A DNA stretch of 64,000 nucleotides from Candidatus Methylacidiphilum fumarolicum (GCF_949774925.1 NZ_OX458932.1:1550001-1614000); one strand, 5' to 3'; counted from the stretch's first letter, positions 7,949-58,567 are shown. Notes: generated from the letters alone by a model not told the origin. Numbers and translations: made by a program.

Positions 7949-9022
7949 CTAGTCAGGATGCGGAGAAAATGCTTGTTCTACCATCAATTTCATCCATATT
8001 TTCCGATGGGGAGCTGGTAGCGGTAAAAAGGAGATTTTCTCTTTTTTAATCCACTCTCCCTGCGAAAGATTAGGTTGGACGAGCTTTTCTTGCTTCCAGT
8101 CTGCTTCGCACACCTCAAGGAAAATCTTATATCTAGAGAGATAGGCAGGCAGAGAAAAAAGAATGGTTTTTTGTTCCATAGCAAAAGGATCGAAATTTGG
8201 AAATAACCACATGCCTTGGTACCTCCCTGTCTTGGAGTTTGCTTGATGTAACCAGATAGAATCTTCTTTTCTAAGAATCGCAATCTTTTCTTTTCTCACT
8301 TCGATTCTTTTTTTCGGCTTGAAAGGCAGCAGCTCGGGCTGTTCAGCTTGACAAATTTCTTTTAAAGGACAAATCATACATTTTGGAGCAAGAGGTTTGC
8401 ATACTGCTCGACCAAAATCCATTAGTGCCGAATTGAAAAGAGAAAAATCATTATCCTCTGAAAGGAGATTCATAGCTATCCTGGAAAGCTCCTTCAACGC
8501 CCCTGCTTTGTTAATCGGCTGATGAATCGATAAAAGCCTAACCAATACACGGATGCCATTAGCGTCAAGCGCCACCGTTTTTTTCCCGAAGGCAAGGCTT
8601 GCAATCGCATTGGCCGTATAGAGCCCTATACCAGGCAATTTTAAAAGCTCTGTAGGTTCCGATGGCAATATTCCCTTTTTTTCAAAGAAAACAATTGCTG
8701 CTATCTTATGGAGATTTCTTGCCCTTGCATAATATCCCAACCCTTCCCATGCCTTTAGAACCTCTCCTTCAGAAGCATTGGCAAGCTTTTCCCAATCTCC
8801 AAATCTTTCCATCCATTTTAAATAGTAAGCAATAACAGTCTTTGCTTGAGTTTGTTGCAACATAAATTCGGAAACGACGATAGCATAAGGATCTTTGGCT
8901 TGCCGCCATGGATAAGAATAAGCATTCGCTTCATACCATTCAAAAAGTCTCCTTGGAAAACTTTCTCTGAATTTTGCATCGATTCTTTCTAGCCAAAAAG
9001 CTATATTATTACCATTTTCCAT
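7949..9022 (-). CDS. mutY: A/G-specific adenine DNA glycosylase MutY (intact copy)
   Basis: Removes adenine mispaired with 8-oxoguanine. The N-terminal HhH-GPD domain has SEFMLQQTQ with the catalytic Glu, and the LPGIGLYTANAIASLAFG hairpin followed by VALDANG with the catalytic Asp. The 4Fe-4S loop is C-x6-C-x2-C-x5-C (CKPLAPKCMICPLKEIC). The C-terminal third is the NUDIX-like 8-oxoG recognition domain. I chose the ATG at 9022 because a GAAGAAGGAG Shine-Dalgarno lies just upstream; a GTG at 9046 would add 8 residues. The ATG overlaps the rnhC ATG on the other strand in one CATG. The N-terminal two thirds are duplicated at 17.4-18.1 kb. Confidence 0.92.
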   Translation of the reverse strand: MENGNNIAFWLERIDAKFRESFPRRLFEWYEANAYSYPWRQAKDPYAIVVSEFMLQQTQAKTVIAYYLKWMERFGDWEKLANASEGEVLKAWEGLGYYARARNLHKIAAIVFFEKKGILPSEPTELLKLPGIGLYTANAIASLAFGKKTVALDANGIRVLVRLLSIHQPINKAGALKELSRIAMNLLSEDNDFSLFNSALMDFGRAVCKPLAPKCMICPLKEICQAEQPELLPFKPKKRIEVRKEKIAILRKEDSIWLHQANSKTGRYQGMWLFPNFDPFAMEQKTILFSLPAYLSRYKIFLEVCEADWKQEKLVQPNLSQGEWIKKEKISFLPLPAPHRKIWMKLMVEQAFSPHPD

Positions 9023-9685
9023 GACTCCTTCTTCTTTTACATTCACTCTGAGCGATAAACAAATTGAAAAACTTAAAGCATTCTTAGATCAAAAAGGCTT
9101 TGAGTTCTCCACTATTGATCATGGGCTATTTAGAGCCAAATCAAAAGGGGTAGTGGTACAGGTCTATAAATCGGGTAAGGTGCTCGTACAGGGTAAAGAA
9201 GCCCTGGAATTTTCCCGCAACGTGATAGAACCTGAAATTCTCCAACAAGCTGCTATTGGCTATGAGTTCCTGACCCATCCCGAATATTTCGAAGCGCATG
9301 TCGGAATTGATGAATGCGGCAAAGGAGATCTGTTTGGACCTCTGGTAATTGCCGCTGTTTTTGTTGACCCACAATCCGCAAAGGACTTCACCGAAATGGG
9401 GATCAAAGACAGCAAACGGATCTCAAGCATAAGACGGTTAAACCAACTTGCCTCAGCAATAAAGAAAAAAACCAAGTACGCCCTCTTATCGCTTCCCCCT
9501 TTACGATATAATGAACTGTACGAAAAAAAATTCAAAAATCTCAATTTGCTTTTGGCTTGGGCACATGCTTGGGTTTATAAAAAACCCTCCTTGGAACTCA
9601 ACGATGCCCCAAGGGTACTCTGTGATAGGTTTGCTCAACCGTGGGTCCTTCAACAATCTTTTAAAAGGATCGGAGCGGATCAATT
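8332..9685. repeat. 1,354-bp direct repeat, left copy (mutY 5' part / rnhC 5' part)
   Basis: This segment recurs at 17379-18732 in the same orientation. The offset is constant at 9,047 bp, and I saw only two substitutions (8664 versus 17711 and 9586 versus 18633). It begins inside the mutY coding region and ends inside rnhC. Outside these limits the two loci share nothing. The pair brackets a 7.7-kb island. Confidence 0.95.
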
Positions 9686-9722
9686 TAATCCTTGGCAATT
9701 CCCAGCATCATTGGTTGGCTAG
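9021..9722 (+). pseudogene. rnhC: Ribonuclease HIII, 3'-truncated copy
   Basis: Identical to the intact rnhC at 18.07 kb up to position 9685. There the sequence switches to transposon-derived DNA, giving an aberrant tail that stops at 9722 (233 instead of 305 residues). The N-terminal TBP-like domain and the first catalytic acidic residues (GIDECGKGDLFG, GIKDSKRIS) remain. The C-terminal segment with ESDPAVAAASILAR, which supplies the last catalytic Asp, is missing. The product should be inactive. The junction coincides exactly with the end of the 1,354-bp repeat. Confidence 0.88.
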
Positions 9723-10438
9723 AAACGAAACGGCAATCACACTGTGCTACCGTGATGGGACCTTCTTTATGCATGGCGTCATCAAAACCAAAAGTCAGAC
9801 ACCGACAGGTCATAACCGATTAGTATTGATCTCGGCTTGAACAATATCTCTACCACCCCAATGGTCTGTGCTACTCTGGCCGCAAGGCCCGACATATTTG
9901 ATGTGGCTACTGGAAATGGAGGAGTCCATCCAGACCAAAGACACGAAAGGTATTCGGCGCACCCTAAAACGGCTCGAGTGGCCGTGAATACCGCTGGATG
10001 AGGGACATCAACCACCCCATCCGTCAGCGCGTCGTCGATAGTCTCAAGTCAAGCAGCTCCTCGTCTTCGAGGCTTGAGGCACATTCGCAATTGTCTCAAG
10101 ACCAACAAAAGCAGGCGCTGCGAGCAGCACTCCTGGAGTTCGGTCATCTGTTTTTGTTCTGCCGCTTCAAGGCGGCAGAACGAGCCGTCTCCGTCGTCCA
10201 GACGGACCAGCGCAATACCAGGCGCAAGTGTCTCTGGTGCAGATGTGTCGAGAAGGACAATCGAAATGGGCACCTGTTCTGCTTTGTCTTTTGTGGCTAC
10301 TGTCAGAACACCGACAGCAATGCCGTTTTCAATTTCTCGATGGCTACTCGAACTGTCGCAATAGGCTGTTCGTTATGTAGCCTCAAAGCCTTGCACCCGA
10401 CCCTGCCGTGGCGCCAAGGACAAGCTCGCGGCTTCTAG
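9690..10438 (+). pseudogene. tnpB: Decayed TnpB (IS200/IS605-type OrfB) remnant
   Basis: Pieces of a TnpB nuclease can be read in several frames in the right order. First comes a strand segment ETAITLCYRDGTFFMHG, then the RuvC-I motif IDLGLNNI near 9818. REYRWMRDINHPI lies near 9990. The C-terminal zinc ribbon (KCLWCRC, then FCGYCQNTDSNA) with the last RuvC Asp lies near 10230-10330. The N-terminal third is missing because the element is cut off at the repeat junction, and stop codons and frameshifts interrupt the rest. It marks the left edge of the inserted island. Confidence 0.75.
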
Positions 10439-10686
10439 CCGCAAGTTTATGACAAAAAACCTTCCCCTTCATCACCTCCTCAACTGAAAAAAGCGCTTGA
10501 AGCCTTTTATAGCATCGTAGGGACATACCGAGAATAAAAGAATAGTGTTATAGTTCGAATTCGATTAAGTGGATAGCTGTATTATTAGAAATTATTGAAC
10601 AAAAGAAAAGAGAATGGCCCCCCAATGCATGCAACTTATTAATGGAAAAGCATAAATTTTTAATAATCAAACAAAGAAGCAGCATC

Positions 10687-11442
10687 CTATAGTTCATCTA
10701 ACTTTTTTAAAAGCTTCTCTTTTGATAAAACAATAATCCTTTTAGTTTCGTTCCGGATTAATTGTTCGTTGGTTAGTTTAGCAAGAATTCTTGAAAGGGT
10801 TTCAGATGTAATGCCTAACTCTGCAGCTATGATTTTCTTGGGGAGCAAAAGGGGAACAATAGCCGATGAAAGATGATCGTCATGAAAATGCTTATGGATC
10901 CATTGAATAAAACGGGTTTCAGCATCTTTCACTGAAAGACTATCTAGTTTATCAACAAGTTTGCGCAAATGATTGCTCATGGAACCAATGATGCGTAAGG
11001 CGATCTCTGGCCGGTTCCGAATCAGGTTAAGAAAATCCGTTTTAGTAATCAATAAAACTTGACTCGATATGACAGCTTTTGCATTAGCAGGATAACCATC
11101 TGAAACAAGGCAGGCTTCTGCAAAGGATTCCGGAGGATAGAAGATGTGAATTGGTTGTTCTTTCCCTTCTGATGTTAACCTATAGACCATTATTGAACCG
11201 CAGATCATAATATAAAATCCAAGAACTGGCTGTTTTTCTCTGAAAAGTATTTGGTCTTTTTCCAAGAAAACCAATTGAGTACATGGGACAAGTTTCTGAA
11301 TTTCCTCTAGAGAAAGGCTTGAAAAAATTCGACTGCGCCTCAATACCCCCTCAATAACAACAGATCTAGCTTTGGAACAGAACTGTTTCTTTTCCATCTT
11401 CATAAAAAAATAGGGAAGAGCCTCTAACACAGATTGAATCAA
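10687..11442 (-). CDS. Crp/Fnr-family transcription regulator, Dnr-like
   Basis: A 251-residue regulator with an N-terminal cyclic-nucleotide-binding fold (FYIMICGSIMVYRLTSEGKE) and a C-terminal winged helix (KKIIAAELGITSETLSRIL). The ETLSR recognition helix carries the E-x3-R pattern that reads TTGAT-type half sites. The N terminus lacks the cysteine cluster of oxygen-sensing FNR, and the sequence around HIFYPPESFAEACLV resembles Dnr/NnrR proteins, which respond to NO or low oxygen. It is divergent from the ba3-type oxidase operon, with an FNR/Dnr box between them, and is therefore its likely regulator. Confidence 0.85.
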   Translation of the reverse strand: MIQSVLEALPYFFMKMEKKQFCSKARSVVIEGVLRRSRIFSSLSLEEIQKLVPCTQLVFLEKDQILFREKQPVLGFYIMICGSIMVYRLTSEGKEQPIHIFYPPESFAEACLVSDGYPANAKAVISSQVLLITKTDFLNLIRNRPEIALRIIGSMSNHLRKLVDKLDSLSVKDAETRFIQWIHKHFHDDHLSSAIVPLLLPKKIIAAELGITSETLSRILAKLTNEQLIRNETKRIIVLSKEKLLKKLDEL

Positions 11443-11546
11443 ACGTTACGACCATAAAAAAGTTTTAATCCTAAATGTGCTTCCAGTTATCTGCTAGAAA
11501 CGTAACGAAAAAAAGTGGATATCAAAATATAAAAAATGAAGATTCT

Positions 11547-11560
11547 TTGATCTAGATCAA
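11547..11560 (+). promoter_or_regulatory. FNR/Dnr-type operator TTGAT-N4-ATCAA
   Basis: The site reads TTGATCTAGATCAA, a perfect palindrome that matches the FNR/Dnr consensus at all ten defined positions. It lies between the Crp/Fnr regulator (start at 11442) and the oxidase operon (first ATG at 11602). Its centre (11553.5) is 41.5 bp upstream of the start point predicted from the -10 hexamer at 11583, the classical class II activator position. The match is seen in the sequence; regulation is inferred. Confidence 0.85.
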
Positions 11561-11582
11561 AGAAAAATGGAAAGCTATCGAC

Positions 11583-11588
11583 TAAACT
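11583..11588 (+). promoter_or_regulatory. Probable -10 element of the ba3-type oxidase operon
   Basis: TAAACT lies where a sigma-70 -10 hexamer should be if the FNR/Dnr box is a class II activator site. It implies a start point near 11595, only 7 nt before the first ATG at 11602, so the message would be almost leaderless. No separate -35 is expected at such promoters. Confidence 0.5.
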
Positions 11589-11601
11589 ACAAGAATAGAA
11601 A

Positions 11602-11748
11602 ATGCAGCAGTTAAGAAAAACAAATGACAAAGAAGATTTCCCCCCGCCAAAAGGAACTTTTTTATTCTTGTTAGGGTATTTAGCGGCAGGAATGCTCCTT
11701 TGGTTTCTTTTTTACTGGATGCTTATTGGAGGAATGAATAATGGATAG
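11602..11748 (+). CDS. Small ba3-type cytochrome oxidase subunit IIa-like protein
   Basis: A 48-residue protein with one membrane helix. A polar start leads into PPPKGTFLFLLGYLAAG, then a hydrophobic stretch through FYWML. The PxGT-F entry to a single helix is typical of the CoxIIa subunit of ba3-type oxidases. Its last 8 bases overlap the start of the CuA subunit gene, which indicates translational coupling. There is no clear Shine-Dalgarno before the ATG, in line with the predicted near-leaderless transcript. Confidence 0.7.
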   Translation: MQQLRKTNDKEDFPPPKGTFLFLLGYLAAGMLLWFLFYWMLIGGMNNG

Positions 11749-12223
11749 ACTTGAAAGAATTTATCTTTGGATTGCGACAGTCATGTTAGGAATTTTTATG
11801 CTGGCTATCATTTACTCGACCTTGGTTTTATCAATTCAAATTCCATCAGATAAAGGACAAATTATCGTCAAACCGAGAGAATCATTAGTCCAATCCGTTT
11901 TTAAAACACCCCCTTTTGATCATCCTGGCTTATACAAAATAGGAGAAAAAGAATACGAGCTTGTCATCGTTGCTCAAGCTTGGGCATTTAATCCGACGAA
12001 TATAGAGATTCCAATAAATTCCCTTGTCAGAATAAAGGCTACCTCTTTGGACTTGCAGCATGGCTTTTATATCGCTGCTACCCCTGTCAATATCATGCTG
12101 ATTCCAGGAGAAATCTCTGTAACCAGCTACAAATTTAAAAAAGCTGGAAGCTATCGAATCATTTGTAATGAATACTGCGGAATGCTTCACCATGCGATGA
12201 CAGGAATCATTTTGGTAAAATAA
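11741..12223 (+). CDS. cbaB: ba3-type cytochrome c oxidase subunit II (CuA)
   Basis: Electron-entry subunit of a heme-copper oxidase. At 160 residues it is short, as in ba3-type enzymes: one N-terminal membrane helix (residues about 10-32) and a periplasmic cupredoxin domain. The binuclear CuA ligands are visible as a distal His in DLQHGFYI and the cluster CNEYCGMLHHAM (Cys, Glu carbonyl, Cys, His, Met). It overlaps the small subunit gene upstream and is followed after 1 bp by subunit I. Confidence 0.93.
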   Translation: MDRLERIYLWIATVMLGIFMLAIIYSTLVLSIQIPSDKGQIIVKPRESLVQSVFKTPPFDHPGLYKIGEKEYELVIVAQAWAFNPTNIEIPINSLVRIKATSLDLQHGFYIAATPVNIMLIPGEISVTSYKFKKAGSYRIICNEYCGMLHHAMTGIILVK

Positions 12224-12224
12224 A

Positions 12225-13910
12225 ATGAAAACAACGTTAATAATTAATTCTTCAGTTGTTCAAAATCCATTGTCTTTTGAGTTTTGTGAAACCGATCGAA
12301 AATTGATTCTAGGAATGATTCTTGTTGGATTTGGATCTTTAGCTCTAGGTGTATTTTTGGGGCTTCTTCAGGCTTTTAATTATGCAGGTGTGGGACTCTA
12401 TCAATTCCTTCCTGGATTAAAAAGTTATTATCATGGGCTCACCTTACATGGAGTACTCAATGGTTTTGTTTTTCCATTCGCAGCTTCAAACGGTTTTCTA
12501 TCTTTAACAACAATTCGCAGCTTAGGTTTAAGGATGCCATCCTCTCTCCTCCTTTTCAGTCTTTTGAGCCTATTTTTGGGAACTGCACTTTCAATTTACG
12601 GCATATTATTTGGAAATTCTGCAGTCCTCTACACTTTTTATGTTCCGATGAGAGCCCACTGGAGTTTTTATTTAGGGATTGCCTTTTTGGTTGTTAGTAC
12701 ATGGGCCATTTCTCTGGCACAGCTAATAACTTTAAGAAAGTGGAAAAAGAATCATCCAACGGACCGTATTCCGCTGCTTGCCTATGCTTCCATTCTTACC
12801 TATATCATGTGGGATATTTCTTCTATTGGAGCAACTGTTGAAGACCTCTTTTTTTTGCTCCCTTGGTCTTTAAACCTTCTTCCAGGATCGGATGCTACAC
12901 TCACAAGGACTTTATTTTGGTTCACTGGACATCCTATTGTCTATTTTTGGCTTTTGCCTGTGTATGTTTCCTGGTATTTCTGCCTTCCAGCACAGGTGGG
13001 AGGAAAAGTATTTAGCGACCAGATGGTTCGCAGTGTGTTTGTAGCATTTTTAATCCTTGTGCCTGTTGGTTTTCATCATCAATATTCAGATCCTGGTATT
13101 GGGTTGTTTTATAAATGGGCAGCTGCAGTTTTGACTTTTGGGATTGCTTTTCCAAGCTTAGTCACAGCTTTTTCTGTTGTTTACAGCCTAGAAATTGGTG
13201 GCTTATCTCGAGGAGGAAAAGGAATTTTTGGATGGGTAAAACGGTTACCATGGAAAGATCCTTCGGTTTGTGCTCAAATTTTGGCGGGGATAGCTTTTCT
13301 TCCGGGCGGTATGACTGGGATCATGCATGCAAGCGTCAATATGGATCTCTTGTTGCATAATACTTCTTTTCTTCCGGGCCATTTCCACCTAACAGTAGGC
13401 GCGGCTGTGGCTCTCTCATTAGTTGGTATTGCTTATTGGCTTGTGCCTTATTTATTAAGAAAAAAACTTTGGGGTTCTTCCATTGCGCGATGGCAGCCAT
13501 GGATCTACTTTGTTGGAGTTCTTGTTTTTTCATCGGGACAAATGAGCGGGGGAGTCCTTGGGATGCCCAGACGCACAGCTCTTGCACTCATCCCATATGA
13601 GCCACTTCCAGGATGGAAAATTGCAGGGATCTTAACAGCTGTAGGTGGAAGTCTTATGTTTTTGAGTTTTCTAATTTTTTTCCTTGTTATGGTTATGACT
13701 ATTTTTTTTGGTCAAAAAGAAAGAGAACCAGTAGATATTCCTCTGGGACAAGTGATACATGGGCCATCCCTAAATGGTCCTCAACTAATTTTTGATAAGA
13801 TCAGTTATTGGGTGCTGCTCTGTTTTGCTCTTATTGCTTTTCTTTATGGTCCATTTTTGATTACTCATCTCCCTCCTAAATTCATTTGTCTACCGTTCCA
13901 GGGATTTTAA
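12225..13910 (+). CDS. cbaA: ba3-type heme-copper cytochrome c oxidase subunit I
   Basis: Catalytic subunit that reduces O2 to water. It has 561 residues with about 12-13 membrane helices. The heme and copper ligands can be placed: HGLTLHGVLNGF near residues 70-80, the CuB His and cross-linked Tyr in TGHPIVYFW, the two further CuB His in GFHHQYSDPG, and the heme ligands in LPGHFHLTVG. The order and loops follow the B-type (ba3) oxidases, which have high O2 affinity, rather than aa3 or cbb3. No assembly factors or cytochrome c genes are adjacent. Confidence 0.93.
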   Translation: MKTTLIINSSVVQNPLSFEFCETDRKLILGMILVGFGSLALGVFLGLLQAFNYAGVGLYQFLPGLKSYYHGLTLHGVLNGFVFPFAASNGFLSLTTIRSLGLRMPSSLLLFSLLSLFLGTALSIYGILFGNSAVLYTFYVPMRAHWSFYLGIAFLVVSTWAISLAQLITLRKWKKNHPTDRIPLLAYASILTYIMWDISSIGATVEDLFFLLPWSLNLLPGSDATLTRTLFWFTGHPIVYFWLLPVYVSWYFCLPAQVGGKVFSDQMVRSVFVAFLILVPVGFHHQYSDPGIGLFYKWAAAVLTFGIAFPSLVTAFSVVYSLEIGGLSRGGKGIFGWVKRLPWKDPSVCAQILAGIAFLPGGMTGIMHASVNMDLLLHNTSFLPGHFHLTVGAAVALSLVGIAYWLVPYLLRKKLWGSSIARWQPWIYFVGVLVFSSGQMSGGVLGMPRRTALALIPYEPLPGWKIAGILTAVGGSLMFLSFLIFFLVMVMTIFFGQKEREPVDIPLGQVIHGPSLNGPQLIFDKISYWVLLCFALIAFLYGPFLITHLPPKFICLPFQGF

Positions 13911-14173
13911 AAAAAGCGAAAGAAAAGCCTTTTAAATTTTGTGCCGGTGGGAAGAGTAGAACTCAGACCGGTTGCCAAGACCAGATTTTTAGTCTATGCA
14001 ATACAAGAGAGACACGTCCTTTATAACCCACATACAACTCAAATAAGCTTGAGGGGTGACGCTGCGCGCATCCATCAAGCACTGGTTTGAGTAAGAACGT
14101 TCAACGGACTTCTGAGGGCTAATAATGGAGCAACTGAGAGAGAATCCGTGTCTTCGCGCGTTATTGCGAAGAT
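13911..14173. other. Short decayed stretch after the oxidase operon
   Basis: There is no credible gene here. The sequence changes from A+T-rich to visibly G+C-richer around 13940-14060, at the start of the decayed integrase region. Confidence 0.4.
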
Positions 14174-15240
14174 CGCGTGAAAAAAGTCACTGAGATTTAT
14201 CGAGTCAAGGAGTGCACAAAGAATCCAGGCAGACCGTGGATGGTGACTAAGGTCTACCACGAGGGCAGAAGGGTCAGGAGGTATTTTGCGATCAAGCAGG
14301 ATGCGTAAGCTTTAGCCCGCCTCTAAAAACTTGCCAGTAATCGGCTCGGACGTCTTATCGGGCACATCTTCCCAGGACTTGTAGACGAAACCATCTGATG
14401 CGAGAAGACCTTCGACCCTACAGGAAATCCTTGACCGATGCCGTGTGCTACTATCTTATCTACCTGGATGTCTGGCAAAAAAGCGCTCCGGTGAAGCAGA
14501 TCTTCTCCGAAGTTCTTCGGATAAGTGTTAGGACGACAGAATCGAGCGGTACGTCAAGAAACTCGGCTTCTATCTGCGCCGCTTTGCACGCCAGCTCAGC
14601 CAAAAACCGATCGTCGTGATTGAGAGACCAGTGATCGACGACTGGTTGCGATCGCTGTCCGGCTCGACGATTCATCGGAACAAATTCCAGCGAAACCTAA
14701 GCGTGGGCTTGCAGCTACATCCAGCAGAATCCGGCTACAAGGACAAGCACTGCCAGAATGCGGATCTCGCACCGGAAACTTTTTTCTCGGGGAGGGACGG
14801 CCCGGTTTCTCTGGGTATGCTGGAGATTGGTCCTGGACATCGTTCCCATGCATTTGATCGGTCTTTTGCCGGTCTGCGCGATGCAGAAATGCGGTTGGAT
14901 TGAAGAGAAGTGAAGCTGAGGCGTGGCCCCATCGTGGTGACTACGGAAAAGAGTAAAACCGTGTATCGGAGGCTCGTTCTCATCAAGGACAACCTAAACT
15001 TATTGCTCAAACCCTTTTCGAACGGATGGTTGGCCCTGTAGATGCGCCAAGCGCTAACGATAAGAGGTTGGCAGTGATGAAGGCAGCCTAGCTTCCAGAG
15101 TAATTCCTCAACGGCTAAAGACACCCCTATGCCCTTATCACTTGATCCACTTCCGAGCCGCTGTCAAGACCGCTCTTAATATGAGCTATATCAGACCAAC
15201 GCTTCTCTTCAACACCTACCGAGAGTTGATAACGCCAAAG
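14174..15240 (+). pseudogene. Decayed tyrosine-type site-specific integrase
   Basis: Integrase segments appear in the correct order but in different frames with stops. An arm-type DNA-binding piece (NPGRPWMVTKVYHEGRRVRR) lies at about 14210-14280. A core-binding start (LRPYRKSLTDAVCYYLIYL) is near 14410. A SAM-like segment (IDDWLRSL then HRNKFQRNLS) lies at about 14635-14700. The catalytic fold entry (FAGLRDAEMRLD, then EKSKTVYRRLVLI) is at 14865-14990. The C terminus (15151-15240) has KTALNMSYIRPTLLF and TYRELITPK with the likely nucleophile Tyr. The Arg-His box survives only as RHPYA. The gene is dead, but it suggests that the island once moved by site-specific integration. Confidence 0.72.
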
Positions 15241-15388
15241 GATACTGTCGTGTACAGGGATGTCACGGCATCAAAAGGCGAGGAATTGTGAATCAAGAAG
15301 CTGTACAGTCTCGGGAGATCACATAAATGTGAGCCCATTGCAGGCGCGAGGATTTGCACGAACTACCAGGAAAAGTGAGCGACGCCGT

Positions 15389-15463
15389 GCTCCTCCTGCG
15401 GCAAGCCGATTCCCGCCTGCGAAGGGAAGCGCTGCGAGTCGTGTTACTGGACGGAAGTCTAAC
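15389..15463 (+). pseudogene. Zinc-ribbon fragment of an integrase-associated small protein
   Basis: A short open piece shows CSSCGKPIPACEGKRCESCY, a double C-x2-C zinc ribbon, ending at a stop codon at 15461-15463. It lies about 150 bp after the decayed integrase in the same orientation. The upstream and downstream coding context is broken. I recall similar small zinc-ribbon proteins next to integrases, but that association should be treated as tentative. Confidence 0.4.
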
Positions 15464-16524
15464 GCAAGCATATCCAGCTTGATCTGTCAAATTTCTTGTC
15501 AATCCACATGGGATCGGTCTTTGGGAAATTCGGGGAATAGCAGTCCGCGCAAGCAAGATCTGCTTCGGTGTTTCTGTGGTAGGCATTGCGTCGGGTCAGT
15601 CCGCCCATGCCATAGCTTAACCAGGCAATGGGGTTTAAGCCCAATCCAAAAGCCCGATAGGATGACTCTGAGTGGAGGCGGATCCAAATGCTCCTGAGAT
15701 CCCTAGGTGAGGAAACCTAGGTGGGATGGACCTTAGCAGCTCACATGAGGGGCTCGCCTGGCGGGTGGAGTGGAGAAATGTTCCCTGCGCTCCGTCCGAA
15801 TGGAACTGACGTCGGCTGCCTCACTGTTGTGGACAGCCGTCGCGAAAAGAGAGATGCCGCCCGGACAGTTCTCGCTCAGTCGCTATCCTATCACTGCCCG
15901 AGCCAGAAAGCGGTGATCACGGGATTTGTACCTTACGGAAAAGCATATACAGCCAGGATCCCGAGTCGCGCCGGAACCGGAGAAAGGTGAAAAAAGCCAG
16001 AATGCGGACTTTCTGGTTTCCAAAAGGCTGCAACTGAATCACTTTGGACTCTGGGTGAGCATCCCGAGGAGAAACGGGAAGGCGGTCACCCCCTTCGGAA
16101 TCGTCCCCTGCAACAGCAGGCTCAGCCAAAAAAGTTGGAGCTGCCTCCCTCTCAGGCTTGCGTTTTTGACTAAAGCGTTAACTTGACTTCCAATAAGAAA
16201 CGTGACAACTCACCGGAGAATTGATTATTTTTTCCCAAAGACGTGATGTATGCTTTGTCAGGCACATGCGGAAAATTGGCTAGAGATCCTTTCGCGAAAA
16301 GATACAGCTTCCTAGGACGTTGGGAAGAACAATCCTGAGCCAAGAGCCATTCCACAGAAGATCAAGCTGCTAAAGAAACGCGAAAAAATGACATCTGTGA
16401 TGTCGAGAAGAGCTGCAATGTCGAGTTGGAGGATGATGGCAAGTCGAGCAACCTCGATCGGATTAATTAGGATCAGAGAGATCGAGAGAAGATCTCGGGC
16501 TGATCCTCCACCTGCCTGAGAAGC
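15464..16524. other. Decayed, non-coding part of the island
   Basis: About 1.06 kb in which every frame is interrupted and no recognisable domain appears. It is G+C-richer than the housekeeping flanks, like the pseudogenes on either side. It probably consists of remnants of former genes. I see no tRNA, operator or clear terminator in it. Confidence 0.45.
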
Positions 16525-17080
16525 TCAAAGGATCACCAAATCATGGAGAAAAGCTAAGTAAAGCCAGAGAACTAGAGCCTCACCTACAGCCGCACTCCGC
16601 ACCCTCAAAAAAGGCAACGCAAAAAGCCCAAACCGATTGAAATGCACGCTAAGGCTATGGCGACTCCGACCAGTAAGCTCAGGACGTGCATATCGACCAC
16701 CTCGAAGGTGGCAAAAAGAAGTAGAAGAAGTCCAATCAGTAGGGCTGACCCAAAGGCCAGCGAAAAGGCGAGGAACTTTGCTTGAAAAACGATAGTACAG
16801 GAGATGGGTTGGGCCAAACCCAACTCGAAAAACCATTTTTCGATAGCTAGCGTAACGACTGCTCCAAATGTTCCTATGAGCGGAACCAAGTAGGGGAAGA
16901 GCTCGGCGACTGCAGTGAACACTTTCTGGGTATCTCCAGTTGCCTAAAGCAGACCGATGCTTTCCGCCGCAAAGACCATAGTTGAGCCACAGATCCAGGG
17001 TCAGAGTATGGCATCGTGGAACTCGAGGCCAAAAGATTATTAAGCTTGTCCACGTCGACGATTCTCCAGAATTTGCACAA
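16525..17080 (-). pseudogene. Decayed ABC-2-type permease
   Basis: On the minus strand, hydrophobic segments of an ABC-2 permease can be read across at least two frames. The most telling is GLAQPISCTIVFQAKFLAFS followed by a Leu-rich helix, which corresponds to the LLAQP-x-SR-x4-GK region of NosY-like exporters. It lies immediately downstream of the ATPase relic at 17090-17378, as expected for an ATPase-permease operon. Frameshifts make it non-functional. Confidence 0.55.
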
Positions 17081-17089
17081 TGGCTCTTT

Positions 17090-17378
17090 CTAAGGTTGGA
17101 GCCTTTTCGGTTTCCCTGATTTCTCTAGGATTTCCTTCAAAAACGATGTTTCTCCATTCCAAGAGCAGCAATCGGTCTGCGAGCTTCTCAACATCGGCCA
17201 TCGAATAAGAGGCGCCAGGATGGTCTTGACTTCCTCTTGTTCCGTACGCAGAAGGTCTTTGAGCCAGATAGAAGCGATCGGGTCCACACCAGCGGTCGAT
17301 TCATCCAAAAGGAGAATGGGGCTGGAAAACATAAGAGCGAGGCTGCAAGCAACCTTGGCCCGGGTCTCCTAGGCAGCT
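17090..17378 (-). pseudogene. ABC transporter ATP-binding protein fragment
   Basis: The minus strand reads RAKVACSLALMFSSPILLLD, then ESTAGVDPIASIWLKDLL, which is the post-signature, Walker B and D-loop region of an ABC ATPase (NosF/CcmA-like). Walker A and the signature are missing because the fragment is cut at 17378 by the duplicated mutY segment. The usual LDEPT has become LDEST, and the frame is broken downstream. Together with 16525-17080 it is the relic of an exporter operon. Confidence 0.7.
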
Positions 17379-18069
17379 GCTCGGGCTGTTCAGCTTGACA
17401 AATTTCTTTTAAAGGACAAATCATACATTTTGGAGCAAGAGGTTTGCATACTGCTCGACCAAAATCCATTAGTGCCGAATTGAAAAGAGAAAAATCATTA
17501 TCCTCTGAAAGGAGATTCATAGCTATCCTGGAAAGCTCCTTCAACGCCCCTGCTTTGTTAATCGGCTGATGAATCGATAAAAGCCTAACCAATACACGGA
17601 TGCCATTAGCGTCAAGCGCCACCGTTTTTTTCCCGAAGGCAAGGCTTGCAATCGCATTGGCCGTATAGAGCCCTATACCAGGCAATTTTAAAAGCTCTGT
17701 AGGTTCCGATAGCAATATTCCCTTTTTTTCAAAGAAAACAATTGCTGCTATCTTATGGAGATTTCTTGCCCTTGCATAATATCCCAACCCTTCCCATGCC
17801 TTTAGAACCTCTCCTTCAGAAGCATTGGCAAGCTTTTCCCAATCTCCAAATCTTTCCATCCATTTTAAATAGTAAGCAATAACAGTCTTTGCTTGAGTTT
17901 GTTGCAACATAAATTCGGAAACGACGATAGCATAAGGATCTTTGGCTTGCCGCCATGGATAAGAATAAGCATTCGCTTCATACCATTCAAAAAGTCTCCT
18001 TGGAAAACTTTCTCTGAATTTTGCATCGATTCTTTCTAGCCAAAAAGCTATATTATTACCATTTTCCAT
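17379..18069 (-). pseudogene. mutY: mutY, 3'-truncated copy fused to foreign DNA
   Basis: This copy keeps the HhH-GPD glycosylase domain and the whole 4Fe-4S cysteine loop. It ends just after CQAEQPE, where the sequence enters the ABC ATPase relic out of frame; the frame continues to a stop at 17188. The 8-oxoG recognition domain is absent. One visible change from the intact copy is Leu for Pro before SEPTE. The start region, including the shared CATG with rnhC, is the same as in the left copy, so it may still be expressed as a truncated glycosylase. Confidence 0.85.
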
Positions 18070-18732
18070 GACTCCTTCTTCTTTTACATTCACTCTGAGC
18101 GATAAACAAATTGAAAAACTTAAAGCATTCTTAGATCAAAAAGGCTTTGAGTTCTCCACTATTGATCATGGGCTATTTAGAGCCAAATCAAAAGGGGTAG
18201 TGGTACAGGTCTATAAATCGGGTAAGGTGCTCGTACAGGGTAAAGAAGCCCTGGAATTTTCCCGCAACGTGATAGAACCTGAAATTCTCCAACAAGCTGC
18301 TATTGGCTATGAGTTCCTGACCCATCCCGAATATTTCGAAGCGCATGTCGGAATTGATGAATGCGGCAAAGGAGATCTGTTTGGACCTCTGGTAATTGCC
18401 GCTGTTTTTGTTGACCCACAATCCGCAAAGGACTTCACCGAAATGGGGATCAAAGACAGCAAACGGATCTCAAGCATAAGACGGTTAAACCAACTTGCCT
18501 CAGCAATAAAGAAAAAAACCAAGTACGCCCTCTTATCGCTTCCCCCTTTACGATATAATGAACTGTACGAAAAAAAATTCAAAAATCTCAATTTGCTTTT
18601 GGCTTGGGCACATGCTTGGGTTTATAAAAAACTCTCCTTGGAACTCAACGATGCCCCAAGGGTACTCTGTGATAGGTTTGCTCAACCGTGGGTCCTTCAA
18701 CAATCTTTTAAAAGGATCGGAGCGGATCAATT
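17379..18732. repeat. 1,354-bp direct repeat, right copy
   Basis: Partner of 8332-9685, in the same orientation and with two visible substitutions. Here the left border cuts the mutY coding region and the right border leads into the intact 3' part of rnhC. Recombination between the copies would delete 9,047 bp and leave one intact mutY and one intact rnhC. Confidence 0.95.
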
Positions 18733-18985
18733 GCTCGAACAGAAAACCAAAGCTGAATCGGATCCAGCAGTCGCTGCAGCTTCCATCCTAGCAAGACTGA
18801 CTTTTGTAGAGGAGTTGGCAAAATTAAGCCAAGTTATTGGCTTGCCATTACCCAAAGGAGCCTCATCAAAAGCAGCACAGCTTGCTAAAGACATATTGTT
18901 GCGTTGTGGTAAAGATACCCTTCGGAAAGTCGCTAAAATACATTTCAAAACCATCCAACAAATTTTCGCTGATTGTGCCCTATAA
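18068..18985 (+). CDS. rnhC: Ribonuclease HIII (intact copy)
   Basis: Cleaves RNA in RNA-DNA hybrids. The 305-residue protein has the N-terminal TBP-like domain (residues about 1-80) that separates HIII from HII, then the RNase H fold. Acidic active-site residues lie in GIDECGKGDLFGPL, GIKDSKRIS, LCDRF and ESDPAVAAASILAR. One change from the truncated copy is visible: Leu for Pro in KKLSLE. Its ATG overlaps the mutY-copy ATG on the other strand. recG follows after 48 bp on the same strand. Confidence 0.93.
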   Translation: MTPSSFTFTLSDKQIEKLKAFLDQKGFEFSTIDHGLFRAKSKGVVVQVYKSGKVLVQGKEALEFSRNVIEPEILQQAAIGYEFLTHPEYFEAHVGIDECGKGDLFGPLVIAAVFVDPQSAKDFTEMGIKDSKRISSIRRLNQLASAIKKKTKYALLSLPPLRYNELYEKKFKNLNLLLAWAHAWVYKKLSLELNDAPRVLCDRFAQPWVLQQSFKRIGADQLLEQKTKAESDPAVAAASILARLTFVEELAKLSQVIGLPLPKGASSKAAQLAKDILLRCGKDTLRKVAKIHFKTIQQIFADCAL

Positions 18986-47828: not shown

Positions 47829-47911
47829 GCCGGTGTGGCGGAATGGCAGACGCGCCAGACTCAAAATCTGGTCCGGGCAACCGGGTGTGGGTTCGACTCC
47901 CTCCACCGGCA
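47829..47911 (+). tRNA. tRNA-Leu (anticodon CAA)
   Basis: Type II tRNA with a long variable arm. The acceptor is GCCGGTG pairing with CACCGGC, the anticodon stem is CCAGA/TCTGG with CAA at 34-36, and the T arm is GTGGG-TTCGACT-CCCTC-like pairing. The discriminator is A and CCA is not encoded. It reads UUG. Confidence 0.95.
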
Positions 47912-48255
47912 CAAAAATCAAAAAGATTTTTTTCTAATTTCCCTTTCCCTACCTTATGAAAACCTTCGGAAGGTTGAACAAATACCTTTTGGGTTGCAAA
48001 TGCGTAATTAAAAAACCCCATAAAGAAAAGCAATACAAGTAAAACAAAACTATACCCAATAAGAGTCTTCGCAAAAATCAATGGAATACTACTTCAGGAT
48101 TGGACCAAGAACCACTTATAGGTTTTCTATCTTTGAAGCTGGATAGCCTTTAGGAAGATAACTGAAATTAGAGGCACGCTCTTTTATTCAGTGGAGGAGG
48201 CGGGGAAAGAACAATTTTACAGCTTATATTTCCCTCTCTTGTATCTCTCCTTTAA
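47912..48255. other. Intergenic region after tRNA-Leu
   Basis: No supported gene in 344 bp. A minus-strand open frame begins at 48081 with a hydrophobic stretch but runs antisense through the tRNA, which argues against it. I see no other signal. Confidence 0.4.
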
Positions 48256-50261: not shown

Positions 50262-50343
50262 AAAAAATCACCTGGCGATTTCTGTAAAACCCAATTGAGA
50301 AAGATGAAGAAGGAGGATTTTTTATATCAAAATCGCCAGGTGA
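50262..50343 (-). terminator. Long-loop intrinsic terminator downstream of TonB receptor 1
   Basis: The minus-strand transcript has a 14-bp perfect stem: TCACCTGGCGATTT at 50343-50330 pairs with AAATCGCCAGGTGA at 50281-50268, followed by a run of six T. The 48-nt loop is unusually long and contains AATCCTCCTTCTTC. It starts about 35 bp after the receptor stop codon. A near-copy lies at 53296-53377. Confidence 0.75.
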
Positions 50344-50377
50344 AATTCGTTCTTTCTTGGTTCTTTTTATCCTAGTT

Positions 50378-53080
50378 TTAGAATTTATAGGCAACTGTTC
50401 CTTCAATCCAGAATGGCCAACCAGCAATAATGCTGCTCATATTGAAAGCACGCGAACCTGCCGATCCAAGACCAAAAGGCAACCAGTACTTTTCATCTGT
50501 AAAGTTATACAGATAAAGCCTTGCCTCCCACTTAGGTTGCGTATAAAAGATCTGAGCATTTAATATAAACTGTGTTGGAATTTTTGTATTATAGAAATAA
50601 TTTAGGTATTGATCACTCATTACTATGGCCCCAAGAGTTACTCCAAGGCCAACGTCAGAGGTATAAGTTACTGTACCGCTAAAATACTGGTCAGGAAATC
50701 CAATAAAAGGATAATTGGAAGAAGGCATCGCACCAGAGATAGGAAAGGGTCCATTGACGAATGGTCCTCCGGCTATAGGCACACCAGTATAATAAGGCAG
50801 TATAGGTGTTAGCTGCCTCATTCCAGGCCCATGGAGTCCTGGAGGAAAACTCGACCATTCCTCAACCGCTCTCATGTAAATGTAGCCCAACCTTGCCCAA
50901 AAATGGCGATCAGGCTGATAAGAAGCATTTATTTCAAAACCTTCTACATTTGTAGGGGTAGCTGGCAAAGGCGCTCCATTAGGCAAAAACCCTAAATTAT
51001 TGAGGATCTGATTTTGAGTAAAAGCAGCAGTGGTGATATACATCTTGTCTTTAAGAATGTTAAACTTCACGCCTCCTTCTATCAGCTGGTTTACTTCGCT
51101 AAAAGAATTTGGTTGGAACGTTGGAGCATATCCTCCAATGACCGCAGCATTAGTAGTCTGAAGCCAGTTAAAATCAAAATAGGCGGTCATCCATGGAAAG
51201 GGTTTATAGACCGGGCTTATGTTTACAAGAGGAGCAAAAGCCGCTGTGCTAAAGTGTGCAAACGGAGCTCCCACTGGTCCAGGAGGCGTGGAAGCATCAA
51301 CAAAGTAAAAATTTGCTCTCGCTCCAAATAGCAGGCTAAACTTGCTTGTCCAATCAATGTTATGCTGATAAAAGGGATTGACCGTCCAATAATTACAATC
51401 CGTAGTTCCACCAGGGCCATTTAAAGGTTCATAAAACCATCCAGGAGGAGCTCCAGGAATCTGCCATTCCCCACCCGCAGGTCCTTTCGGATTATTAACA
51501 GCTTTTGCAAAGGGAGCTAAAAAGACTGCGTTCCAACTATAGGGATTGGTTGTCATCATGCTCCAGACATTTCCTGCATTCCAAAAAGCATCCCCAAAAT
51601 AGTCAAGGTTTCTCTGATAATGCCATTCAATGCCCGCATCAATGTTATGCCGCATTAACATTTCCCCGATTGCCCCCTCCCAAAAGGATTTTTTAACCTC
51701 TTCATCCCCTTCGCTTTTGGAGGTTTCTTTATACTCCTTCATTTCTTTTGACCCCTTCTCAGGAGCAGCAGCTTCTAAGGGAGTGTCAAAATTAACTCTT
51801 ATTTCTGTTCTGTTATCCACTTCATAATCCCCTGAGAGATAAGCAGCCACATACAACGAAGGTTCGATCCAGGAGCTACGCGTATACCAAGCAAAAGTAT
51901 TGTTCACAATCTCAATATTATCTGAAACCTTTACCCGTTGGATAAGCTGAAGCATTCCAGTCATCGCATTGCCCCCGCCTGCAGGATTCACAATATCAGC
52001 CCTTCTGTTTACAGGTACAAAAAATGGACTGGTCAAGGTTCCAGCCAGGGCTCCAGGAGGAAGCATTCCAGCTGTATACAGTCCGTTATCGATGAGGGCA
52101 TTAGTTGGCCTGTTGATTTGATCAGCTAACTGTGGCATAAAGGAATAGGTCCCAAAATCAGCATAAAAATCGACGGTATAATTCTCGTAAGGTTTGGCTC
52201 CAATTGCCGCATAGAAATTCTGCTGATTGTTGTAAATGTTGTTATAATAACTACCCTGTTCTTGCCCCATATAGCTAAAACGCCAGGCCACTTTATCATT
52301 GACTGGACCTCCAACATCAGCCCCCCAAAGATATTGGCTGTACATGCCAGTGGTATCCCATATATATCCTCTAAACTTGTCAAAATAGGGCTGTTTGGTA
52401 ATATAGTTCACACTACCAGGAGTAGGCTGTGTAGCTCCAAAAACCGCATTGGCAGGTCCTTCGGTAATGTCCATTGATTCCACCATATTCCAGCTAAAAG
52501 GAACTCCAGCCATGGAATCGTTTTGAAGAGTCATTTCAATTCCATTTATATAGGGAAGCGCTTGCCTTCCTCGAATGGTGATCGCATTTCCCATCCCCCA
52601 GTTGAGTTCTGTATAAGCTGTCGGAAGAATCTGAGAAACGCTCAGGGGATCAAGATAGCCCTGATAAACCGTTCCGGCAGCTTTTAGCATGGTAGGATTA
52701 ACAGGAGTCACTTGCCTGGGTGTATCCATTACGCTCATGGGGATCCCATAAGTAGAGGACACAGGACCTTGTTCGGTTGGAAGAACCGCTGCATTCGGAG
52801 CACCAAAGGTTTCCACGGCACTTGGGGGAGTCTCTGTTTGTACAGTCACCTCTGGCATCGTTATCCTGCCGCTAGCCGATTCCCTTTGATTATAAACTGG
52901 TATGTAATTTTGTTTGGATTTTTGCTTCCCAGAATGATTTTCTCCGTTGTACTGGGAATCAGATGACGGATTATTAGTAGTAGTAACATCCTCATCATCA
53001 AGACCAAAAAGATTGAGGTTAGTAAACAATAAGACCATCAAGAAAAGTATTATCCAACTTTTTTTCCTCTTTTTAATCAT
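50378..53080 (-). CDS. TonB-dependent outer-membrane receptor, copy 1
   Basis: Energy-coupled uptake receptor of 900 residues. It has a signal peptide (residues 1-26, KKSWIILFLMVLLFTNLNLF), an N-terminal extension rich in Asn/Ser/Gln, a TonB-box-like PEVTVQTE near 76-83, and a plug domain with AITIRGRQALPYINGIEM (about 166-183) and NYITKQPYFDKFRGY. A barrel of about 600 residues ends in the terminal Phe of EGTVAYKF. A strong AGGAGG precedes the ATG at 53080; another in-frame ATG at 53107 would cover it. Tandem Pho-box repeats lie upstream, so phosphate-starvation control is likely. The substrate is unknown. Confidence 0.92.
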   Translation of the reverse strand: MIKKRKKSWIILFLMVLLFTNLNLFGLDDEDVTTTNNPSSDSQYNGENHSGKQKSKQNYIPVYNQRESASGRITMPEVTVQTETPPSAVETFGAPNAAVLPTEQGPVSSTYGIPMSVMDTPRQVTPVNPTMLKAAGTVYQGYLDPLSVSQILPTAYTELNWGMGNAITIRGRQALPYINGIEMTLQNDSMAGVPFSWNMVESMDITEGPANAVFGATQPTPGSVNYITKQPYFDKFRGYIWDTTGMYSQYLWGADVGGPVNDKVAWRFSYMGQEQGSYYNNIYNNQQNFYAAIGAKPYENYTVDFYADFGTYSFMPQLADQINRPTNALIDNGLYTAGMLPPGALAGTLTSPFFVPVNRRADIVNPAGGGNAMTGMLQLIQRVKVSDNIEIVNNTFAWYTRSSWIEPSLYVAAYLSGDYEVDNRTEIRVNFDTPLEAAAPEKGSKEMKEYKETSKSEGDEEVKKSFWEGAIGEMLMRHNIDAGIEWHYQRNLDYFGDAFWNAGNVWSMMTTNPYSWNAVFLAPFAKAVNNPKGPAGGEWQIPGAPPGWFYEPLNGPGGTTDCNYWTVNPFYQHNIDWTSKFSLLFGARANFYFVDASTPPGPVGAPFAHFSTAAFAPLVNISPVYKPFPWMTAYFDFNWLQTTNAAVIGGYAPTFQPNSFSEVNQLIEGGVKFNILKDKMYITTAAFTQNQILNNLGFLPNGAPLPATPTNVEGFEINASYQPDRHFWARLGYIYMRAVEEWSSFPPGLHGPGMRQLTPILPYYTGVPIAGGPFVNGPFPISGAMPSSNYPFIGFPDQYFSGTVTYTSDVGLGVTLGAIVMSDQYLNYFYNTKIPTQFILNAQIFYTQPKWEARLYLYNFTDEKYWLPFGLGSAGSRAFNMSSIIAGWPFWIEGTVAYKF

Positions 53081-53171
53081 TTTTCCTCCTAGATTCCTCC
53101 TAGACATTATAACGAAACGAAAACAGTTAAAACACGCCCTCTTGTTTAGCCTAAAAAAAAGACAAAAGGTA

Positions 53172-53222
53172 GTGACAGTTATGTAAATTATTTATGACAA
53201 CTTTATGACATTTTTATGACAT
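53172..53222 (-). promoter_or_regulatory. Tandem Pho-box repeats upstream of TonB receptor 1
   Basis: Read on the minus strand, five 7-mers recur with exact 11-bp spacing: ATGTCAT, ATGTCAT, TTGTCAT, AATTTAC (degenerate) and CTGTCAC. They are separated by A/T-rich 4-mers such as AAAA. This is the direct-repeat pattern of PhoB boxes (CTGTCAT-N4). The array ends 91 bp before the ATG. A -10-like TTTAGG follows within about 17 bp of the last repeat. Confidence 0.72.
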
Positions 53223-53295
53223 TTTTATTTTTATCATCTCTTTGAAATTCAGATAGATAAGTAATTATATGTGGTTTTTATTTTTTAAATATTGA

Positions 53296-53377
53296 AAAAA
53301 ATCACCTGGCAATTTCTGTAAAACCAAATTGAGGAAGATGAAGAAGGAGGATTTTTTTTATAAAAATCGCCAGGTGA
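53296..53377 (-). terminator. Long-loop intrinsic terminator, second copy (formerly of TonB receptor 2)
   Basis: Near-duplicate of 50262-50343, with the same 14-bp stem, the CCTCC-containing loop and a T7 run. One arm change turns a G-C pair into G-U in the minus-strand RNA, so the fold is kept. It lies directly upstream of the promoter region of receptor 1, where it would end transcription of receptor 2. The IS at 53410-55228 now separates it from that gene. Confidence 0.72.
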
Positions 53378-53409
53378 AATTCGTTCTTTTTTAGTTCTTT
53401 TTATCCTAG

Positions 53410-55228
53410 TCCATCTTCCGCAACGTTACATCATAAGTGATTGCAACAGAACGAAATAGATTTTTCGTTCTGCCTACATTGCCCACTTGGGCGGAGAAGC
53501 GAAGAGGGAAAGTAGATCGATCTTTTGCAGCAAGGCATTCAACTCTGGGGGAATCTGAGAGAAGAGCCCGATCAGCGGTTGTCCTTTTAGAGAGAGGTTG
53601 ACCAAGCGGACCGTCTGAAGACGCCGAAGCACCTTTGGCACCTCTTCGGTAAAGCCCTTGGCCGCCCATTCGGCTCCGAGCCGCGCACTTATCCAGAAGG
53701 CCAGGAAGCAGATCCTTACATGGTTGCGGACCCGGTCCGGTCGCCAGTGATAGACGGGACGGACTTCCAGGTAGCTCTTGAGCTCCGAAAAGGCAGCCTC
53801 GACCTCGAGCCAGCTGCTTATAGTGGGTGAGCACCGCCTGGCCCGAAGCCTTGGTCGCAGGGAGATTGGTCTCCAAGAGATACCAGCCGTCAGTCGCCTC
53901 TTCTTCCTTGACCCGCTCCTGATCCAGTTTCCACCAGAACCGGCCGCCTGCGTCGACGCCGTACTGGAAGTATTTGTGCGCTTGAAGCCTCTGCAGCGCT
54001 CGGCCAACCCGGCTGCCGAGATTCACGGGATTCACCTGCCGGCGTGCCGCCTTCGTGATCTGGCGGAGCACCTCTTCTGCTTGGGCAATGCGGTTTTGTC
54101 GCCGTTCGCGGTCCCGCTGAGCCCGCCATTCTCCTCCCGCAATGACATAGCGCACTCCCTCCTGTTCGATCTCCAGTACCCGCGTCCGGTCCGTTAGCCA
54201 GAGCTGCTGGTCTTCGGGCAGACGACTGAGAATCTCCTGAAGCTTGGCCCGAGTCGACCGGGTCACGTACTCCAGCTCCATGCCAGTCAGGATCTCCAAG
54301 TTCCACCAACTCCTCATCCCCCCGTCGAAGACGAAGGTCGCCTCTTGGATCCCAAACCTCCGTCTGAGCGTGACCAAGAGCCCCGTCAAGGTCGTGCGGT
54401 CCGCCCGATTCCCTCTCAGTACTTCCACATGGAACGGAATCCCCCGACCATCCGTAGCTACCGCCAGAAGAACTTGGCGCCGATCCTGCCGGTGATCCCG
54501 ACTATAGCCATATTGCGCCAGTCCCTCAGGGCCCTCCCCTTCGAAGTAAACGCTCGATAGATCGTAGAGCACCAGGCTCGCCCCCTGCGGCTGACTCCCT
54601 TGGTAAAGCTTCTTCTCAATCCCGCTCCAACAGCCATTCAACTCATCCATCGCCCGGTAGAGCTCGTCCTCATCCAGATCCTTCTCTTCGAGCCCACAAG
54701 CCTTGGCCAGAAGAGTCCCCCGCGCTTCCTCCCGAAGCGCCAGCTTCGAGGAAGGAAAGAGAATCCGGCTAAAAATCATCGCCTTCAAAAGCCTTCGTTT
54801 CCGCTCCGAGCCAACACTGGCAAAGACTTCATCGAGGCCAAAGCGACCCCAGGCTTCTTCGAGAACGGCCAATCCTCCATAATCAAGTGCCTCCTGGGCT
54901 TCGAGCCCCTCTACAGGGACAAGACGCTTCTTTTGCAAGGCCGCCGCCAGCACTTCCCGAGCTTCTTCCGGCAACCGGGTCACGTTGGCGATCCGGCGTG
55001 TCTTCACCTGCTTCCCCACCCGGTAGGACTCTCGGACAATATAGGATCGATAGATCTTCCCTTTGTGGCGTGTGCGGACCTCCTGCAAGTAAATGCCTAC
55101 CAGGCTAACATTTTTCCACTACGATGCCTAAAAAATAATAAAAATATAATAAACTATTGTGTCCTACATGAATTTACATAAGTCATTGATACATCAACAA
55201 AATGGTCAAAAACTTGCGGAAGATGGGA
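53410..55228 (-). mobile_element. IS1634-like insertion sequence (1,819 bp)
   Basis: The ends are near-perfect inverted repeats: the left starts TCCATCTTCCGCAA, and the right, read inward, is TCCCATCTTCCGCAA. Both sides carry TAG (53407-53409 and 55229-55231), a 3-bp target duplication. The empty site is preserved downstream of receptor 1, where the sequence ATCCTAGTTTTAG is uninterrupted (50369-50381). The insertion is 2 bp beyond the stop codon of receptor 2. The element is G+C-rich against its surroundings. Confidence 0.88.
53474..55088 (-). pseudogene. DDE transposase of IS1634-like element, frameshifted
   Basis: DDE_Tnp_1-type transposase. The first Asp lies in LYDLSSVYFEGEGPEGLAQY, the second in ATFVFDGGMRSWWNLEIL. 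The third motif (VEAAFSELKSYLEVRP, with the Glu) is in another frame because of an extra base near 53803; restoring it would give YKQLARVEAAF. Past that point the original frame yields unrelated sequence. The corrected C terminus ends at 53474 (LFASPPKWAM). As written, the enzyme lacks its catalytic Glu. Confidence 0.82.
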
Positions 55229-55233
55229 TAGTT

Positions 55234-57936: not shown

Positions 57937-58010
57937 TTTCCCTCCTTTTACGAAGAGAAAAACAATTAGAATATGCCTTCTTGTTTATCCTAAAAAAAAG
58001 ACAAAAGGTA

Positions 58011-58061
58011 GTGACAGTTATGTAAATTATTTATGGCAACTTTATGACTTTTTTATGATAT
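58011..58061 (-). promoter_or_regulatory. Degenerate Pho-box repeats upstream of TonB receptor 2
   Basis: The same 11-bp-spaced array as at 53172-53222, but with substitutions on the minus strand: ATATCAT, AAGTCAT, TTGCCAT, AATTTAC, CTGTCAC. Three of the five units differ from the copy-1 array, each by one substitution away from TGTCAT. The array ends 74 bp before the ATG. PhoB response is expected to be weaker than for copy 1. Confidence 0.6.
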
Positions 58062-58134
58062 TTTTACTTTTATCTTCTCTTTGAAATTCAGATAGATAAG
58101 TAATTATATGTGGTTTTTATTTTTTAAATATTGA

Positions 58135-58567
58135 TAAATTTTAATGTCTTTAGTTAAGAAAAAAAGAGGTTCTTGGATAACTGAGGAAAGGAAGATGCCT
58201 TTTTTAAAAGCAAATGTGAAGAGGTTCGATTTTAAAGTCAAAAGTGGAAACATAACCACAAAGAAAGCTCCAAGTAGAAGCAATTTTAGATTCAGGATCT
58301 TATCCTTCAGACGAATTTTCCTGCAGACATTTTCCTAAAACTAGAAGCCACACACCCAACCAACTGTATTTGTTGGCCACATGGGCACAAAGATGCTGCT
58401 GATTCAGCCAATTCCAAGATAGCAGCAGAAAAATTTTTTTCTAAAAACTAGCTCTCTTACCAATAAACATTGAGCGGCCACACTACATCAAAACCTTTCT
58501 CTAAATCCAGACAAAACAATTTTATGAGCTTCTTTTATTTTTTACCAAGAGCCTTCCTCTCATATAG
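58135..58567. other. Intergenic region before the second IS
   Basis: About 430 bp without a supported gene. A short plus-strand frame (58144-58338) has no recognisable features. A piece around 58370-58440 faintly resembles the end of a transposase, but I would not call it. Confidence 0.35.

Follow-up and report, generated by a model that had tools for sequence, protein, structure and literature searches.

Methylacidiphilum fumariolicum SolV is a methane-eating bacterium in which an island bringing an extra oxygen-respiring enzyme (oxidase) lies amid duplicated parts of two repair genes. We analysed a window of 64,000 bp around this island, corresponding to bases 1,550,001-1,614,000 of the SolV genome (a single contig of 2,476,671 bp); positions given below are those of the window unless assigned to a genome. 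Comparing the window with itself showed that 8324-9685 is repeated directly at 17371-18732, a duplication of 1,362 bp with 99.78% identity and an offset of 9,047 bp. For comparison, we used four congeners, G001, G002, V4 (G003) and Kam1 (G004), with SolV as G000. The original prediction had described a repeat of 1,354 bp with two substitutions. Both of these differences, at 8664 and 9586 in left-copy coordinates, are found within 8332-9685, but the repeat starts 8 bp before 8332, as 8324-8331 is mutY sequence in two close congeners, and a third substitution falls at 8331. A near-identical repeat of 1.36 kb is not a product of chance.

The repeated segment is the shared core of two divergent genes, mutY and rnhC. 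Full-length mutY (7949-9046, minus strand) encodes a 365-residue adenine glycosylase (TIGR01084, E 5e-76, below the curated cut-off; Pfam HhH-GPD and a weak NUDIX_4 match), and its right part lies inside the left copy. Also in the left copy is a truncated gene, rnhC' (9021-9722, plus strand), in which profile searches and an in-silico collapse of the repeats distinguish 222 rnhC codons followed by 11 foreign ones. The right copy has the reverse arrangement: full-length rnhC (18068-18985, plus strand) encodes a 305-residue ribonuclease HIII (TIGR00716, E 9.5e-71, above the cut-off), while mutY' (17188-18093, minus strand) continues into foreign, out-of-frame codons, as judged from its translation, Pfam and the same collapse. 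Each partner gene is cut at a repeat edge, rnhC' on the left and mutY' on the right, and our translations agree with the prediction on this point. Its further claim, that recombination between the repeats would remove 9,047 bp and restore both genes, was borne out in silico, where the collapse yields an intact mutY (365 aa) and an intact rnhC (305 aa). The whole SolV genome contains two copies of mutY, both at the present repeats.

The start codons of mutY and rnhC overlap in a single CATG (9020-9023 and 18067-18070), as they do in Kam1 and G001, so each gene's promoter must sit inside the other gene. At least 660 bp of original sequence remains upstream of each full-length gene, so expression of both is probably preserved. 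The predicted truncated products differ in what they lack. Everything after about codon 237 is missing from MutY', the NUDIX-like C-terminal domain with it, whereas its glycosylase domain and iron-sulfur cysteines remain. RnhC' stops before the SDPAVAAAS segment (residues 231-239), which we take to carry a catalytic aspartate, and is for this reason probably inactive.

The two copies differ from each other at 3 of 1,362 sites (0.22%), compared to about 5-7% between them and the two closest congeners. At 8331 the left copy has a derived A and the right copy the T of both close congeners; the derived base is in the right copy at 8664 and in the left copy at 9586. All three substitutions alter a codon, and two hit the truncated genes. 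This distribution, with at least one derived base in each copy, implies that the copies diverged after one event.

Contents of the island

The DNA between the repeats had been described as a respiratory island. This holds for one intact oxidase cassette; the remainder is decayed DNA of several origins, and the island is a patchwork. The cassette (10656-13917) consists of a Crp/Fnr-family regulator (10687-11442, minus strand; cNMP_binding and HTH_Crp_2 domains), coxB (11741-12223, plus strand) for cytochrome oxidase subunit II with a CuA motif (Pfam COX2), and coxA (12225-13910, plus strand) for subunit I (Pfam COX1, E 1.9e-73). By eye, we also found the metal-ligand motifs CNEYCGMLHHAM and GFHHQ in the oxidase. 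As a whole, the cassette is 81% identical in DNA to positions 145350-148628 of G002, with dN/dS of 0.07-0.12.

To the left of the cassette lies a dead relic of an IS200/IS605-type TnpB (9835-10459, plus strand), with a Cas12f1-like TNB domain (E 6.6e-6) and 69% DNA identity to SolV genome positions 152814-153343. When six-frame translations of the decayed stretches were searched against Pfam, the TnpB zinc ribbon was the sole match. To the right, directly after the cassette, is the 3' half of a tRNA-Leu(CAA) gene with its downstream bases (13918-13995, minus strand; 81% identical to 47857-47934). This attR-like scar of 78 bp sits between cox and an integrase, internal to the island, and is its sole att-like sequence. 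The tyrosine integrase (14243-15290, plus strand) is dead, as predicted, and was recognised solely via an intact 356-residue homologue from the same bacterial family, to 344 codons of which it aligns with 55% identity, 7 frameshifts and 6 stops. A close homologue of this integrase in a further genome (G010, locus L072, 1452-3809) lies near a Na+/H+ antiporter resembling the one upstream of tRNA-Leu(CAA) in SolV; no tRNA was found between that homologue and its antiporter.

Beyond the integrase, a relic of a zinc-ribbon protein (15340-15940, plus strand) matches an ORF from a related genus (L057; tblastn E 7e-22), where this protein adjoins TniQ. It is followed by a decayed, truncated ABC ATPase-permease pair (16207-17372, minus strand) that is 83% identical to an intact pair at SolV genome positions 2216689-2217858. 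This relic contains frameshifts and stops, and the cut in its ATPase gene coincides exactly with the onset of mutY sequence. In the ATPase, differences from the intact copy number 14, 14 and 14 by codon position (about 13% overall), the even spread that neutral decay would give; the permease, with 38, 34 and 61, shows some excess at third positions. Nos accessory genes without nosZ have been reported in M. fumariolicum (PMC11102522), and NosFY is on that account a likely name for the pair. We recognised no replication gene in the island's sequence.

Origin of the oxidase cassette

A review describes a second ba3-type oxidase in SolV and strain Phi (PMC8498564), the source from which we take the assignment to the ba3 type (B-family heme-copper oxidase). 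The coxBA genes of the island probably encode this second enzyme. SolV's other copy, at 1.244 Mb, is probably the sulfide-induced ba3 operon MFUM_v2_1257-61 (PMC10205796), judging from the order of locus tags. In the accessible parts of the literature, we found no description of an oxidase between mutY-rnhC repeats or of its lateral history.

CoxA is 90% identical in amino acids to its closest relative, from G002, and 62% identical to SolV's other copy. Between SolV and G002, dS for coxB and coxA is 0.85-0.9, whereas five genes flanking the island range from 1.9 to saturation, indicating that the cassette moved laterally. The dN/dS of 0.07-0.08 for coxB and coxA in the same comparison points to purifying selection on the cassette. 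In G002 the cassette (145350-148628; locus L040, 1258-5419) sits elsewhere and is itself an insert; the genes bordering it there lie near one another in SolV, Kam1 and V4, only about 0.8 kb apart in SolV. Scans of genome collections with coxA and coxB returned no close relative outside the genus.

A third position within the genus carries a relic. The dead 3' end of an older coxA lies directly downstream of tRNA-Leu(CAA) in SolV (47829-48118) and also in G001 and Kam1, and is the remnant of a lost oxidase. The island repeats this arrangement, with cox facing half a tRNA-Leu and an integrase next to it. On the simplest reading, cox would have lain next to tRNA-Leu in the donor, that tRNA gene would have received an integrative element, and the island would be a piece of donor chromosome spanning the resulting scar.

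The empty site in related genomes

The prediction had called for an alignment of related genomes. In all four congeners, mutY and rnhC are contiguous, head-to-head and free of the island at the syntenic place, and the two genes are likewise neighbours in the other genera and families that we checked within the order. The interruption is therefore restricted to SolV among the genomes examined, which indicates that SolV gained an insertion together with a duplication of its target. The gain amounts to 9,047 bp, made up of a second copy of the 1,362-bp core and a laterally acquired island of 7,685 bp, and it appears to be recent.

The 13 lesions of the integrase and the decay of the ABC genes far exceed the 0.22% divergence of the repeats, which implies that the decayed parts had been non-functional for a long time when the duplication arose. 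If the repeats have not been refreshed by gene conversion, everything in the island except the cassette would have been dead well before the repeats came to enclose it.

Mechanism of insertion

How did foreign DNA come to lie within this gene pair? The shared fragment stands as direct repeats at both ends of the insert, the empty site is uninterrupted in four congeners and the collapse restores the target. We lean towards a Campbell-like event, with somewhat better than even confidence, in which the foreign DNA was attached to a piece of mutY-rnhC before its arrival and a single homologous crossover brought it in. The donor would have been another Methylacidiphilaceae lineage, its DNA linked to a fragment of SolV's own mutY-rnhC by illegitimate joints of microhomology size, and a circular or concatemeric form would then have entered the chromosome by one crossover, presumably RecA-dependent, within mutY-rnhC. 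No dedicated recombinase would be involved. The insert may have persisted because neither repair gene is lost to the duplication and because a working ba3-type oxidase comes with it. Consistent with this route, the island is joined non-homologously at both ends, with a CCT common to both parents at the transporter/mutY joint (by eye), and SolV has ComEC for DNA uptake. The island's best matches elsewhere in the SolV genome reach 83%, 69% and 81%; lacking a near-identical source, copying from within the genome is disfavoured. Searches of plasmid and phage records returned no circular molecule, plasmid or phage with island DNA.

Of the Campbell-type integration originally proposed, the insertion with direct duplication stands and the structure fits, but the crossover itself is unproven, as a duplication made by end joining would look identical. 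Sister chromosomes broken at 9685 and 8324 and joined through a captured foreign fragment, by end joining or template switching, would leave their overlap as the repeat with neither circle nor crossover. A circle needs two illegitimate joints before its crossover and is thus no more economical than this single repair event, which gives the same product and for which the 3-bp microhomology CCT also speaks, as does another case in the SolV window in which directly duplicated copies flank an insertion sequence. Ku, the end-joining protein, is present in three of the four congeners (G001, G002 and Kam1) and has no match in SolV or V4. Its absence from SolV lowers the probability of such a repair without removing it, since SolV may have lost Ku only later. 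Two long captured ends would also be required simultaneously, and on balance we regard this origin as a serious candidate that is nonetheless rather unlikely. An older insertion is less probable still. The repeats could owe their young appearance to gene conversion, deletion between direct repeats is scarless, so an empty site does not prove past absence, and the relics are old. The island could then have entered a common ancestor, decayed in place and been precisely deleted elsewhere, while the SolV repeats were homogenised. This history, which we consider improbable, demands several independent losses as well as the homogenisation; moreover, the cox cassette resembles a later lateral gain, and the older cox relic is located at tRNA-Leu, not at mutY-rnhC.

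We give little credence to an error of assembly, whether a false second mutY-rnhC copy or an extrachromosomal island folded into the chromosome. With a median of 1.7 kb and a 95th percentile of 3.3 kb, the corrected PacBio reads were short for a repeat of 1.36 kb, but the assembly was verified by independent SMRT runs and showed no fluctuation in coverage (PMC4210602), three substitutions separate the copies, and each joint truncates a gene. Least probable, to the point of being negligible, is insertion by an element of the island itself, through site-specific recombination or a transposase. The island does carry a tyrosine integrase and a TnpB relic, but both are dead, the tRNA half is internal rather than at an edge, and a 1.36-kb duplication far exceeds known target duplications or att cores, so that nothing on the island could drive insertion. 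Transposon ends were rejected, as the outermost 300 bp at the two sides of the island share no direct or inverted repeat of at least 9 bp, and so was an integrative element with its own recombinase, since the integrase is not intact and the ends are a 1.36-kb gene duplication in place of short att cores.

The suggestion that mutY-rnhC serves as an attachment site finds no support in these comparisons. No independent insertion at mutY-rnhC was found in the four congeners, and the pair is adjacent in the other genera checked; no live integrase or other recombinase is available; and the tRNA-Leu half is internal and derives from an older event. What is seen is a single accidental event of a known kind, not a dedicated integration site. 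Kilobase direct repeats lose the DNA between them at the usual rates of homologous recombination, and the SolV repeats may now permit spontaneous loss of the island. One could speculate that they form a reversible switch, by which SolV populations lose and regain the oxidase island at mutY-rnhC while MutY' and RnhC' alter mutation or repair, so that the type of respiration would be tied to the dosage of repair genes; we think this most improbable.

Comparison with known systems

The favoured Campbell-like reading has counterparts among known systems. As in insertion-duplication integration, direct copies of a shared fragment flank foreign DNA, each copy truncates one gene, and the event can be reversed by homologous recombination. 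In contrast to that procedure, the SolV case is natural, with no vector backbone, no recognised replication gene and no circle seen, and its shared fragment spans the region in which two divergent genes start, which leaves one full copy of each. Transformation of Streptococcus pneumoniae likewise links DNA uptake to direct duplications through unequal crossing over (PMC3784515), although those merodiploids require repeats already present and have duplications of about 100-900 kb, whereas the SolV copies are 1.36 kb long and enclose 7.7 kb of foreign DNA. Homology-facilitated illegitimate recombination in competent bacteria (PMC3240628) also integrates foreign DNA by a homologous anchor and an illegitimate joint; its classic form has a linear donor with one homologous and one illegitimate end, whereas both island ends in SolV are illegitimate joints. 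With tRNA-targeted integrative elements the island shares half a tRNA-Leu beside a tyrosine integrase, but here the integrase is dead, and the pair is internal and unrelated to the repeat edges.

The locus reveals no new mechanism. It offers a clean natural example of foreign DNA placed inside two conserved repair genes, both of which are kept thanks to a duplication that also makes the insert unstable, and it allows the probable second ba3 oxidase of a model methanotroph to be placed and dated relative to its surroundings.

Other features of the window

At 50262-58138, a gene that we judged by eye to be TonB-receptor-like, and that has no Pfam match, occurs twice in direct orientation with 97.6% identity. 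A transposase-like ORF (53406-55088) lies between the copies, and the inserted stretch has at least 11 more copies in SolV at about 95-96%; at the syntenic place, Kam1 and G001 match one receptor copy only. A further segment, 59442-59860, is probably an insertion sequence and matches a region beside tRNA-Ala in G001 (L024, 12235-12670) at 78%.
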